A stretch of 64,000 nt of DNA from assembly GCF_036898465.1 (NCBI RefSeq), contig NZ_JARUMJ010000001.1:4588001-4652000 (forward strand). The letters run 5' to 3'. Position 1 is the first letter of the stretch. The number at the start of each line of letters is the position of its first letter. The notes below the pieces were generated by a model. That model was given only the letters and a program-made list of their open reading frames with translations. It was not told the DNA's origin and did no database searches. This stretch comes from Streptomyces sp. B21-105 (lineage in GTDB: Bacteria; Actinomycetota; Actinomycetes; Streptomycetales; Streptomycetaceae). Of this stretch, positions 38,483 to 60,690 are shown one piece after another. A program made the position numbers and the translations under genes.

Positions 38483-39162
38483 TCAGCCCAGCCGGGTGAG
38501 GGCCTCGGTCGCGATGTCCTCGAAGACGGCCTGGTCGGCGGCGAAGTCGGAGTCCGCGATCGGCCAGTGAACCACGATCTCGGTGAAGCCGAGTTCGCGG
38601 TGGCGCCCCGCGAAGTCGACGAAGGCCTCCACGGACTCCAGCGGCCGGCTCCGGTCCGGCGTGAACCCGGTCAGCAGGATCCTGTCCAGCTCCGCCCCGT
38701 CGCGCCCGGCGTCGGCGCACGCCTTGGCAAGGTTGGCGAGCTGGCCGCGCAGCGCCGCGTCCGACTGCTCCGGGGTCCCCTCCTCGTACAGCTTGGGATC
38801 GCCGGTCGTCACCCACGCCTGCCCGTACCGGGCCGCCAGCTTCAGCCCGCGCGGCCCGGTCGCGGCCACCGCGAAGGGAAGCCGGGGGCGCTGGACGCAG
38901 CCCGGAATGTTGCGGGCCTCGTCGGCGGAGTAGTGGGCGCCCTGGTGGCTCACCGCGTCCTCGGTGAGAAGACGGTCGAGCAGCGTACGAACTCACCGAA
39001 GCGGTCCGCGCGTTCCCGCGGCGTCCACGCAGGCCGGCCCAGTACCGTGGCGTCGAAGCCGTTGCCACCCGCGCCGATGCCCAGTGTGACCCGGCCGCCC
39101 GAGACGTCGTCGAGCGAGATCAACTCCTTGGCGAGGGCCACCGGGTGGCGGAAGTTGGGTGA
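38483..39162 (-). pseudogene. 3' part of the LLM-class oxidoreductase gene split by the element, frameshifted
   Basis: This is the C-terminal two thirds of a luciferase-like F420-type oxidoreductase, beginning at the attachment core with (S)PNFRHPV and continuing to the natural stop. Its first third lies 21.5 kb away at 60674-60898. Homology to the intact copy at 59610 is near continuous, but one base is missing at about 38985 (GTACGCTG where the copy reads V-P-L), which shifts the frame. The gene is therefore broken twice, by insertion and by frameshift. Joining the two parts would give about 300 residues in the original gene. Confidence 0.93.
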
Positions 39163-39172
39163 GCCCACTCCG
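39150..39172. other. left attachment site (attL)
   Basis: Chromosomal sequence GGAAGTTGGG (target gene) meets element sequence GCCCACTCCG at the core TGA 39160-39162. Fused with the other junction, the chromosomal halves rebuild a perfect 12-bp palindrome GGTGACGTCACC in the empty target. Confidence 0.85.
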
Positions 39173-39184
39173 TGCTCATACCAT
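39155..39184 (+). promoter_or_regulatory. integrase promoter spanning the attachment core
   Basis: TACCAT at 39179-39184 followed by seven bases and the integrase ATG looks like a leaderless -10. The -35 position, 18 bases further up, overlaps the core: in the integrated state it reads TTGGGT (39155-39160). In the excised circle the right end would supply TTGAC before the core T, giving TTGACT. Integration would therefore weaken the promoter. Confidence 0.5.
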
Positions 39185-39191
39185 CGGTCCC

Positions 39192-40625
39192 ATGCGACGA
39201 CCCAGGCCCCACGAGCCGACCATAACCTCAGGTGAGCCTGCGGCTCTCTACTGCCGGATATCCCAGGCAGACGACGACGATCAGACCGGCGTCGATCGGC
39301 AGGAACGTATCTGCAGGGAGATCGCCGAACGCCGGGGCCTCACCATCGACCCCGCCCACGTCTTCGTCGACAACAGCCGGTCGGCGTGGAGCCGGGGCCG
39401 GAAGCGGCCTGGCTGGGACCAGCTTCTCGAACGTGCCCAGCGGCACGAGTTCCGGCACGTCATCGCGTACCACCCGGACCGGCTGATGCGGCAGCCGAGG
39501 GACCTGGAGGAACTGCTCCAGGTCTCCGACGAGCACCGGATCACGCTGCACGGCGAGGCGAACCGACGGGACCTGTCGGACCCCGACGACCGGTTCATCC
39601 TTCGCATCGAGGTCGCCCATGCCTGCCGGTCGTCCGACGACACCTCCCGGCGGCTCAAGTCGGCGCTGAAGGAGCGCGTCGAGAACGGTCTGCCGCACTC
39701 GGGCAAGCGCCGCTTCGGGTACGAGACGGACGGCGTGACGATCAAGGAGGACGAGGCCGAGATCGTCCGAGAGGTCTTCGACCGGTACCTCAAGGGCCAG
39801 AGCCCGAGCGCGATCGCCCTGGTCTTCCACAAGCGCGGCATCAAGACCGTGTACGGCAAGGAATGGTCACAGGGCACGGTCCGCGCGCTCCTCGACTCCC
39901 GCCATGTCGCCGGCATCCGCATGCACCAGGGCGAAGAGGTGGGCCCGGGCAAGTGGCCCGCGATCATCGACCAGGGGGTGTGGGAGGAGACCCGCGCACG
40001 GCGCGAGTACCGGTCCGCCGTGCACCAGACGAACCTGGAGCTGCGGCGCTTCTACCTGCTGCGCGGCCTGGTGATGTGCTCGCGCTGCGGCACCCTCATG
40101 TCCGGCACGAAAATCGGCGGGGTGCCGTCGTACCTCTGCACGCGGAAGAGCCGCAACGGCACCAAGAAGTGCGTGCGGCGCATCGCCGCACTGAAGCTGG
40201 AGGAGTTCGTCACGGAGGCCGCCATCGACCTGCTCGGGAGGCTCACCGTCTCCGGCCAGCTCGCGTCGACCTCGCTGCCCGACGCGGCGGCCGAGTCCGT
40301 CGAGGCCGACCAGCGGCAACTCGACGAGCTCAACGAGATGTGGACCGCGAAGGAGATCTCCACGGCGGAGTTCCGCAAGATGCGCAAGGAGATCACCGAC
40401 CGCATCGCCAAGGCGCAGCGCCGCCTCGTCGTACGGCCGATGAAGCTACTCGACGGGCTGACGGGCGCGGGCGCGAGAGACGCCTGGAACGCCGCGGAGA
40501 TGACGGACGAGCGGCGCAACGCAGTGCTGCGGTTTCTCTTCTCCGGCGTGGTGATCGACGCCTCCGGCAAGCCGAGTGGGGTCTTCGACTGGGACCGGAT
40601 CGCCATCGCGCAGAACCCGCTGTAG
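39192..40625 (+). CDS. int: large serine recombinase (integrase)
   Basis: 477 residues. The N-terminal resolvase domain (about 15-155) has the catalytic Ser24 in YCRISQ and the Arg pair in YHPDRLMRQPRDLEE. A Recombinase domain (about 180-290, with GKRRFGYE and SPSAIALVFHKRGI) and a zinc-ribbon (about 295-345, CSRCG then two later Cys in LCTRK and KKCVRR) follow, then a coiled-coil. It catalyses site-specific integration using a 2-3-bp core. The start codon is 30 bases inside the left end. ATG 39192 is chosen; an in-frame GTG at 39159 lies on the core itself. The C-terminal coiled coil spans about 385-425. Confidence 0.95.
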   Translation: MRRPRPHEPTITSGEPAALYCRISQADDDDQTGVDRQERICREIAERRGLTIDPAHVFVDNSRSAWSRGRKRPGWDQLLERAQRHEFRHVIAYHPDRLMRQPRDLEELLQVSDEHRITLHGEANRRDLSDPDDRFILRIEVAHACRSSDDTSRRLKSALKERVENGLPHSGKRRFGYETDGVTIKEDEAEIVREVFDRYLKGQSPSAIALVFHKRGIKTVYGKEWSQGTVRALLDSRHVAGIRMHQGEEVGPGKWPAIIDQGVWEETRARREYRSAVHQTNLELRRFYLLRGLVMCSRCGTLMSGTKIGGVPSYLCTRKSRNGTKKCVRRIAALKLEEFVTEAAIDLLGRLTVSGQLASTSLPDAAAESVEADQRQLDELNEMWTAKEISTAEFRKMRKEITDRIAKAQRRLVVRPMKLLDGLTGAGARDAWNAAEMTDERRNAVLRFLFSGVVIDASGKPSGVFDWDRIAIAQNPL

Positions 40626-40689
40626 GCGAGGCGATGAGGCGAAGACCAGGAGCACAGCTGGGCGCGGCGGCGGAGCAACATAGCAGCAG

Positions 40690-40714
40690 ATCGCCGGTTA
40701 CCCAAACCGGCGAT
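40690..40714. promoter_or_regulatory. 10-bp palindrome, copy 1
   Basis: ATCGCCGGTT-N5-AACCGGCGAT. The same arms recur at 46896-46922. Both copies are preceded by ACATAGC, which could be a -10 box. They lie downstream of the integrase and of the relaxase gene. It may be a shared operator or a terminator without U-tract. Confidence 0.55.
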
Positions 40715-59436: not shown

Positions 59437-59596
59437 TGGGGAACCTTGATGTGAGGACCTGGCGGTGATCGCCCGTCGACGAGATGACGACCGCTGCGGG
59501 GCTGCGTGGTGCGCGGTTGAACGTCCCTGATGCAGAGCCGGCGGACGCAGGAGCCGCACAGGGTGACGGACGTCCAGAGCCCATCGAGTACCGCCG

Positions 59597-59602
59597 TAGG
59601 CT
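59597..59602 (+). promoter_or_regulatory. -10 box of the leaderless replacement gene
   Basis: TAGGCT followed by seven bases and ATG at 59610. The disrupted chromosomal gene has TAGGCT six bases before its own ATG (60905-60910, minus strand). The element copy thus carries its own promoter of the same type. Confidence 0.65.
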
Positions 59603-59609
59603 CTGAGGC

Positions 59610-60512
59610 ATGAGTCTGCGCCTGAGCACCGTGATCCTTCCGTACCGCCGCTGGAATGAAGGCGGCCGTGCGGCCTGGCAGCGCGCAGAGGAACTCGACT
59701 TCTACACCGCGTACACCTATGACCACCTGTCCTGGCGGAGCTTCCGTGACGGACCCTGGTTCGGCGCTGTCCCGACCCTGACCGCCGCCGCGACTGTCAC
59801 CCGGCGCATGCGCTTGGGGACCCTCGTCACATCGCCTAATTTCCGGCACCCAGTGCCGTACGCCAAGGAGCTGATCTCCCTTGACGACATCTCCGGCGGC
59901 CGGTTCACGCTGGGTGTCGGTGCAGGCGGCGCAGGATTCGACGCCATCGTGCTCGGGCAGGAGGCGTGGACGCCGCGCGAGCGTGGCGACCGGTTCGCCG
60001 AGTTCGTGCCGCTGCTCGACCGGCTGTTGACCGAGGGTTCGGTGTCGTACGAGGGCGCCTTCTACTCCGCGCATGAGGCGCGCAACATCCCGGGCTGTGT
60101 GCAGCGCCCGCGGCTGCCCTTCGCGGTGGCCGCGACCGGGCCGCGCGGGCTCCGCCTCGCCGCGCGGTACGGGCAGGCGTGGGTGACCACCGGGGACCCC
60201 AAACTGTTCGAGTCGGGCACCCCCGAGCAGTCGGTTCGGGCTATTCGCGGACAGCTCGAGAAACTGGCCGACGCGTGCGCTGAGCTCGGCCGCGATGAGG
60301 CCGAGCTCGGCAAGGTCCTGCTCACCGGTTTCACACCGGACCGTAGCCGTCCGCTGGAGTCCCTGGACGCGTTCGTGGACTTCGCGGGCCGACACCGGGA
60401 GCTGGGGTTCACCGAGATCGTGATGCACTGGCCGATCCCCGACTCGGACTTCGCCGCGGATGAGAAGGTCTTCGAGCAGATCGCCATGGAAGCGCTCGCC
60501 CAGCTGCGCTGA
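59610..60512 (+). CDS. LLM-class (luciferase-like) F420-type oxidoreductase, element-borne replacement of the target gene
   Basis: 300 residues, full length, uninterrupted. A TIM-barrel luciferase-like protein with the family motifs YTYDHLSWRSF near the N terminus, GRFTLGVGAGG, and FAVAATGPRGLRLAARYGQAWV. It would use F420H2 or FMN to reduce an unknown substrate in the cytoplasm. It is homologous along its whole length to the split chromosomal gene, with close protein identity. Across the attachment core (59814-59852) the peptide is kept but 10 of 14 codons differ, including rare ACA, AAT, CCT and CCA. It lies 160 bases inside the right end of the element. It should supply the function lost by insertion. 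Confidence 0.93.
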   Translation: MSLRLSTVILPYRRWNEGGRAAWQRAEELDFYTAYTYDHLSWRSFRDGPWFGAVPTLTAAATVTRRMRLGTLVTSPNFRHPVPYAKELISLDDISGGRFTLGVGAGGAGFDAIVLGQEAWTPRERGDRFAEFVPLLDRLLTEGSVSYEGAFYSAHEARNIPGCVQRPRLPFAVAATGPRGLRLAARYGQAWVTTGDPKLFESGTPEQSVRAIRGQLEKLADACAELGRDEAELGKVLLTGFTPDRSRPLESLDAFVDFAGRHRELGFTEIVMHWPIPDSDFAADEKVFEQIAMEALAQLR

Positions 60513-60663
60513 GTGGTCATTGGCCTTCTACAAGGGCCGAGGGGCTGGGGGCCGAGGTAGTCTGCCCATCTGCCCGTCACAGGGTTTGCCAGGCGGCCAG
60601 CCCTGCGAACATGTCCTCAACATCTTGGCCGCATTGTCGCAGGTCACGATGTGGTGGGCGAAA

Positions 60664-60690
60664 AAGGCTTGACTGACGTCACCAGGGTGC
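60664..60690. other. right attachment site (attR)
   Basis: Element sequence AAGGCTTGAC meets the core TGA (60674-60676) and then chromosomal CGTCACCAGG. With the left junction it gives the empty site GGTGACGTCACC. Upstream, 60513-60673 is a non-coding attP arm. Confidence 0.85.

Follow-up and report, generated by a model that had tools for sequence, protein, structure and literature searches.

What becomes of a conserved gene when a mobile element integrates into its middle is the question raised by a locus of Streptomyces sp. B21-105. In the stretch of 64,000 nucleotides analysed here (the window; assembly GCF_036898465.1, contig NZ_JARUMJ010000001.1, positions 4,588,001 to 4,652,000), an element with a large serine integrase lies between the two stumps of a single LLM-class oxidoreductase gene, and a full-length homologue of that gene is carried inside its right end. 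We propose, with a probability of about 0.82, that the element splits the host gene and brings a recoded replacement that is predicted to keep the gene's function and to resist the element's own integrase. The features on which this reading is built are the following, in window coordinates.

39161..60675, no strand: serine-integrase element of ~21.5 kb, with one gene's stumps on both sides and a TGA core at each end
38483..39162, minus strand: 3' stump of the LLM-class oxidoreductase target gene, by homology to the carried copy
39160..39162, minus strand: core of the left attachment site attL, TGA (gene sense TCA; shared dinucleotide TC), the same junction codon as in the lined-up 3' stumps
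39192..40625, plus strand: large serine integrase, with its first ATG at 39192 within the frame 39159-40625, starting ~30 bp inside the element
59597..59602, plus strand: TAGGCT box, possible -10 element of a leaderless promoter, 7 nt before the start of the carried copy
59610..60512, plus strand: carried full-length replacement of the target gene, 300 aa, LLM-class / bacterial luciferase-like, intact frame inside the right end
59811..59855, plus strand: attB-equivalent stretch of the copy, codons 68-82, synonymously recoded; crossover codon TCG at 59832-59834
60674..60676, minus strand: core of the right attachment site attR, TGA (gene sense TCA), from lined-up junctions
60674..60898 (read 60898-60674), minus strand: 5' stump of the LLM-class oxidoreductase target gene, by homology to the carried copy

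The lined-up junctions place the crossover at the TC of serine codon 75, within ACC TCG CCG AAC TTC CGG (peptide stretch TSPNF). The target gene is split at this codon across a core of only 2-3 bp, and both stumps remain truncated; in-frame rebuilding of the gene by one element end through the att repeat was tested and was not found. The integrase contains the domain set of large serine recombinases, i.e., resolvase, recombinase and zinc ribbon (Pfam Resolvase 1.3e-20, Recombinase 2.1e-17, Zn_ribbon_recom 2.4e-9), and the left arm of attP lies between the attL core at 39160..39162 and the integrase start. Since the homology of the 3' stump runs on in two frames, this stump contains an extra frameshift near 38984-38986. 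The stumps at both ends and the TC crossover thus bear out the first-pass annotation, which had a serine-integrase element splitting an LLM-class gene.

The same annotation had placed a full-length homologue at 59610-60512, and the intact 300-aa frame found there matches Pfam Bac_luciferase (E 4.8e-38). The window's stump pieces share 79-81% protein identity with this copy and the next genome match by score is 34% identical, so the carrier's only intact close copy is that of the element; nine more distant LLM-type matches were detected in the same genome. The copy had also been credited with its own promoter. A sigma-70 promoter scan found none for the carried copy, but a TAGGCT box lies 6-7 nt upstream of the start codon at the native gene (60905-60910) and at 13 of the 14 copies compared. 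In the fourteenth (genome G405), which contains a stop codon, TCGGCT stands in place of TAGGCT. Such a box would fit a leaderless promoter.

To what extent the arrangement recurs was read from an integrase scan of a genome collection (84,980 species), which returned 29 loci (genomes, loci and contigs are given below as G, L and C numbers, G000 being the window's genome). In 14 of these related-integrase loci, L053 included, the 3' stump of the LLM-class gene abuts the integrase. Together with the window and five further genomes of the genus (G025, G057, G116, G290, G358), they form a set of 20 genomes, and all 20 hold an open-frame copy on the strand opposite to the stumps; in G402 the copy sits at a contig end and its first two residues are missing. 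In 15 genomes the copy and the integrase share a contig; in the other five (G392, G394, G398, G401, G402), whose assemblies are broken, it is the contig of the 5' stump that contains the copy. Of the integrase genes, 17 are full length, that of G402 is truncated at a contig end, and those of G403 and G406 are broken. The idea, put forward in the first-pass annotation, that the host loses a gene by the insertion and receives an intact replacement with the element is supported by these 20 linked genomes, among which no related element lacks the gene; expression of the copy and repair of the loss by it are what we infer. Two remnants without an integrase (G022, G090) do lack a copy at the site.

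The rest of the element is far less constant. When 16 other open reading frames of the element were compared with 15 genomes, for which some elements were fetched only in part, the DnaB-like frame (9 genomes) and part of the relaxase-like frame (10) recurred, two of the remaining frames matched 2 and 3 genomes, and 12 matched none. The target gene is near-universal in the genus, with a match at E 1e-25, mostly one, in 386 of 392 genomes (in a few of these the match is only to stumps, to a broken gene or to a distant paralogue), and uninterrupted sites are therefore the rule. An integrase of >=84% identity occurs in 12 of the 392. Among phage records 739 match the integrase and among plasmid records 349 match the carried copy, all below 60% identity.

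The first-pass annotation contained neither the second element of this kind in the same genome, described below, nor the feature that we consider central: the attB carried within the copy is synonymously recoded. Where the native gene reads as given above, the carried copies read ACG TCG CCT AAT TTC AGG or similar, and yet none of the 22 carried and 50 chromosomal genes differs in the peptide of codons 68-82. The chromosomal set comprises 28 of the 29 loci L005-L033 at the top of the match list for the 392 genomes (L019 is the carried copy of G122), 20 chosen by hand from lower down that list, G405 and G407. Recoding was scored at positions with the same amino acid, as the share at which a carried copy has a codon that occurs in <5% of chromosomal genes. 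A first test used 21 carried copies, those of G405 and G075 among them, and 48 chromosomal genes, leaving out L017 and L023 (chromosomal) and G404, G059, G293, G091 and G209 (carried). Codons 67-82 scored 37% vs 7.4% elsewhere and ranked second of 219 windows, and chromosomal genes scored against each other gave 2.6% in the window of codons and 2.5% elsewhere. For a second test, with the 20 integrase-linked copies and 48 chromosomal genes, the chromosomal genes again included L023 but not L017, whose flanks are non-native, or the fossil L224, and G408 was left out; codons 68-82 then ranked first of 218 windows (0.349 vs 0.050 for the rest), and the best window without overlap with the site scored 0.107.

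Single codons show the same pattern. At codons 72-79, 112 of 160 positions are non-majority in linked copies vs 46 of 384 in chromosomal genes, the corresponding values for the rest of the gene being 0.27 and 0.19. Codon 74 is other than ACC in 20/20 linked copies vs 2/48 chromosomal genes, and codons 74 and 76 are both off-majority in 19/20 vs 1/48. Over the 45 nt, 22 carried copies show 6-10 mismatches to the chromosomal consensus and 50 chromosomal genes 0-7 (mean 3.0). The recoded window spans ~20 nt on either side of the crossover, and an attB of a serine integrase usually extends ~20 nt to each side. Since it is the attB footprint that is recoded, the copies are predicted to be resistant to their own integrase.

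These observations suggest the following course of events. A circular element would recombine its attP with the attB in the conserved host gene, at the TC crossover within the TSPNF stretch, and thereby split the gene; this step is documented by the junctions. A replacement with a short native start region would then take over the lost function. Because the attB of the copy would share the circle with attP, the integrase would attack an unaltered copy, i.e., the element's own, and the silent substitutions across the footprint may prevent this self-attack. Recoding is thus what the element would need if copy and attP share a circle. The host would from then on depend on the element for the gene. 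Once an element has decayed, its copy could stay as the resident gene and be split in turn by a later element, for which G091 and G393, described below, are the best candidates.

The ancestry of the copies was followed in trees of the LLM gene built with the site codons left out. A single clade of carried copies, as had been predicted beforehand, was rejected in both versions: the 77-row tree, in which four doubtful rows were counted as carried, needs 9 label changes, >=6 of them on well-supported branches, and the clean set (20 linked, 47 chromosomal) needs 7, >=4 of them forced, with one clade in 0/200 bootstrap trees. A 3'-part tree that included the hosts' stumps (100 rows) revealed clusters across hosts (G397/G399/G290/G025, G406/G075/G116 and G392/G402/G405), placed the G394 copy among chromosomal genes and gave the window's copy no firm placement. 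In all 22 comparable genomes, some other sequence resembles the 3' part of the copy more closely than the target of the same host does (70-89% for the latter), which rules out a recent duplication of the host gene, the origin that would have spoken against the first-pass annotation. With own targets never closest and the bodies polyphyletic, capture or exchange of the gene body appears to have happened on more than one occasion, while all 20 copies have the recoded site. The ratio of nonsynonymous to synonymous substitution rates (dN/dS) is 0.12-0.25 in 6 carried pairs and 0.05-0.26 in 8 chromosomal pairs, indicating purifying selection.

The arrangement is found with a second target gene as well. 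In the window's own genome, outside the window (G000:C1:4969000-5028999, L155-L157), an integrase 73% identical to the first one, at G000:C1:4970943, abuts what is left of the 3' end of a pyridoxal phosphate-dependent aminotransferase gene (3' stump, residues 265-406 of the open frame), and an intact copy and a 5' stump of this gene lie beyond it.

G000 about 5005760-5004531: intact copy of the aminotransferase gene
G000 5015244-5014420: 5' stump, residues 1-273, 92% identical to the copy

The intact copy is the only other match to the 3' stump in G000. Its best solved relative is Rv0858c, an N-succinyldiaminopimelate aminotransferase, and it passes NCBIfam NF005855, hence the designation dapC-like; the attB of actinophage TG1 is reportedly also located in dapC. 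Besides G000, 11 named genomes with this integrase group were searched, and 10 of them have an intact copy (the G416 copy is in two frames); in 7 of the 11 a 5' stump lies <=300 bp from the copy. Identity to the G000 copy is 80-94% for the intact copies (G408: 76%) and 54-69% (G410: 85%) for the 3' stumps next to the integrase. Codon 245 is changed from GTC to GTT in 10/11 carried copies vs 0/20 chromosomal genes; the copy without the change is that of G408, where the integrase is fragmented, as it is in G417, whose copy is changed. In the tree of this gene, 8 of the 11 carried copies group with three other genes (100/99 support), of which L178 is also changed, and the remaining three fall in another group. 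At L046, L048, L049, L051 and L054, two to four aminotransferase 3' stumps stand in a row left of the integrase, a sign of repeated insertion at that gene.

Several loci appear to preserve later stages. G091 has an intact gene with site codons of the host type and a same-strand 5' stump 12.2 kb away, and no integrase was found in the 27 kb fetched. The stumps of G393 are 97.7% (5') and 96% (3') identical to the gene of G091, with the next 5' stump 12.3 kb further on, so that G393 looks like a new element inserted into an older, G091-like copy. A similar spacing of 2.4-2.7 kb links G209 and the pair G397/G398, the 5' stumps being 88-89% similar (the comparison of 5' fragments used 26 of 31). 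In G379 (L224), a partly recoded intact gene stands beside a decayed, inverted 3' stump. G405 (L056, C31) contains a related element at an unrelated site; there the host's LLM gene is intact, and the copy has one stop codon and the altered start box. Loss of the recoding after loss of the integrase, fully in G091, partly in others, and in G408 for the dapC-like family, is only suggested, because the recoding persists in G403, G406, G075 and G417.

A number of findings weigh against the proposal of a recoded replacement. Three genes first counted as chromosomal are partly recoded: L017, whose flanks are non-native; L224, which its decayed neighbouring stump marks as a likely fossil; and L023 (G237 C7), which has its native place and flanks. 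No element or stump was found near L023 or near L268, both of which are partly recoded LLM genes in the native place. The copies of G403, G406 and G075, and of G417 in the dapC-like family, are still recoded with their integrase broken or not detected, and outside the site the LLM copies are not one clade. The stumps, with dN/dS of 0.13-0.35 in 8 pairs, showed no clear relaxation of selection. In the tree of the 3' part, the stumps of G397 and G398 are placed away from the gene of G209, which weakens the case for a relay from one element to the next at these loci. In the dapC-like family few silent changes are possible at the site (Trp codons), and the wide window ranks 7/265. For 3 elements of a third integrase group (~53% identity), stretches of 37-40 kb were fetched, and in none of them was the stump peptide matched a second time (0/3); the far ends of the elements were not located within these stretches. 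The members of this group (L147-L152 and L060, with the L060 piece at 68%) are inserted near the end of a target that reads by eye as an SMR-type transporter gene.

Further findings of this kind concern the target itself. In G022 and G090 both stumps are present, and neither an intact copy nor an integrase was detected within the 9-11 kb fetched (the match figures of G120 in the 392-genome scan are the same as those of G022). G010 has two 5' stumps only, G224 a broken gene only, and 6 of the 392 genomes have no match to the LLM gene at all. Loss of this gene is thus survivable, and the target is not strictly needed.

Among the other explanations, the one that fares best holds that the recoding is unselected, shared ancestry or foreign codon usage merely showing best at this stretch. 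Many copies do share ACG TCG CCT AAT TTC AGG, and non-majority codons are slightly more common throughout the copies (0.27 vs 0.19, as given above). We nevertheless regard this as improbable, as the excess is concentrated at the attB footprint, which ranks 1/218, the variants differ (ACA/ACG, CCT/CCA, AGG/CGC/CGT) and are spread over different gene lineages, and the dapC-like copies are changed at their own, different site. A second explanation takes the copy as bait, a landing site or homology block for accreting further elements, with rescue secondary. Stumps, either 5' or 3', stand in rows there, and G393 resembles a new insertion into an older resident copy, both of which would agree with it, yet a landing site should keep its attB, from which the copies depart, and purifying selection acts on the whole reading frame; it is accordingly given very little weight. 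Slightly less credit still is due to the idea that the element brings an enzyme with improved or altered properties, which benefits the host and is retained for what it does itself instead of standing in for the lost one: host and carried proteins are ~20% different and copies come from other lineages, but several copies sit among ordinary chromosomal orthologues and the same pattern recurs with a dapC-type aminotransferase. The least credible account, in which the copy is incidental cargo, a captured luciferase-like gene without rescue, can point to the nine distant LLM-type matches in the same genome and to targets absent or broken in some genomes, but does not account for 20/20 copies being homologous to precisely the gene that was split while most other cargo differs, or for the sister integrase carrying a homologue of its own, different target.

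The recoded replacement therefore remains our preferred reading, and we consider it likely that it extends beyond one locus. The elements would then represent a natural split-and-rescue class, in which insertion knocks out a conserved metabolic gene at its middle and a carried, integrase-proof, recoded copy makes the host dependent, at least two genes serve as targets, and successive elements relay the function, each breaking its predecessor's copy and supplying one of its own. If this is true, a carried recoded replacement would remove the limit to dispensable targets for mid-gene insertion by serine integrases, and loss of the element would be costly. This would amount to a kind of host addiction without a toxin and would give engineered gene drives a counterpart in nature. 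The bases that a serine integrase reads could be worked out from the pairs of native and predicted-resistant attB, and a conserved gene in an annotation may in fact be a mobile element's copy.

Two of the remaining element genes recur in other genomes.

41209..42735, plus strand: DnaB-N / AAA_25 replication-type protein (Pfam), matched in 9 of the 15 other genomes compared
44173..45606, plus strand: relaxase-like protein, a weak assignment (Pfam Relaxase, 25.1 bits vs a cut-off of 24.6)

The relaxase-like protein is matched over 30-39% of its length in 10 of the 15 other genomes. With regard to the features of an integrative mobilizable element (IME), the integrase is clear and the relaxase is a weak match barely above its Pfam cut-off. 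As for cargo, a longer frame includes at 47266-48129 a match to an IS30-family transposase (C-terminal part), likely an insertion sequence remnant, an ABC transporter ATPase and a DUF7224 protein are encoded at 48101-50094, and a DNRLRE-domain protein (52660-54627) precedes a 1161-aa RHS/YD-repeat protein (54780-58265).

How, then, does the element compare with known systems? Islands in tRNA genes restore the gene that they disrupt (PMC4383910), and like target-restoring elements in general (tRNA/tmRNA islands, Islander, PMC4383910; 3' or 5' gene ends, PMC5704250), the present element would spare the host a cost by supplying what its insertion displaced. Target-restoring elements keep or regenerate the gene end through att-site sequence; here, the gene is cut in the middle across a core of 2-3 bp, and the replacement is an entire, diverged gene located elsewhere in the element. 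The carrier keeps an intact version of the target in 20/20 genomes, but as a separate gene. The first-pass annotation had set the case apart from restoration of a tRNA gene or gene end, and no in-frame rebuilding through the att repeat was found. A site-specific serine integrase, a short core and insertion inside a protein gene are shared with serine-integrase IMEs and actinomycete integrative and conjugative elements (PMC5704250, PMC3218068), for which, unlike here, no carried replacement is mentioned in the accessible parts of these papers. There, serine-recombinase IMEs are described as disrupting genes dispensable for the host, rumA and others (PMC5704250), and a large serine-integrase survey, in its accessible part, lists target genes as disrupted (PMC10083194). 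Accretion in Streptomyces (PMC9513070) likewise places several elements in a row at one site; in the part of that report available to us, identical repeats lie at a tRNA gene, whereas here the rows consist of protein-gene stumps, some apparently of earlier carried copies.

In the open-access literature, as far as its accessible parts go and with subscription papers mostly outside the search, no natural integrative element with a carried recoded target replacement was found. The closest relative in design is the engineered Cleave and Rescue (ClvR) and toxin-antidote drives (PMC7951863), which the accessible part of the source describes as engineered, nuclease-based and shown in Drosophila. The Streptomyces element differs in being natural and integrase-based and in that integration itself disrupts the target. 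The LLM target is not essential, as the gene is missing or broken in some genomes, where ClvR calls for an essential one. The parallel is that a disrupting enzyme is present, with an insertion next to the integrase that splits the gene and leaves stumps at both ends. In the place of the tightly linked functional version of the gene that such drives carry, the element has a linked open frame under purifying selection, whose function is predicted, and in the place of a rescue that the enzyme cannot attack it has a copy recoded at the site, whose resistance is predicted. Together, as far as can be read from the DNA, the element works like Cleave and Rescue, while standing outside that class as a natural counterpart with an integrase in place of the nuclease.

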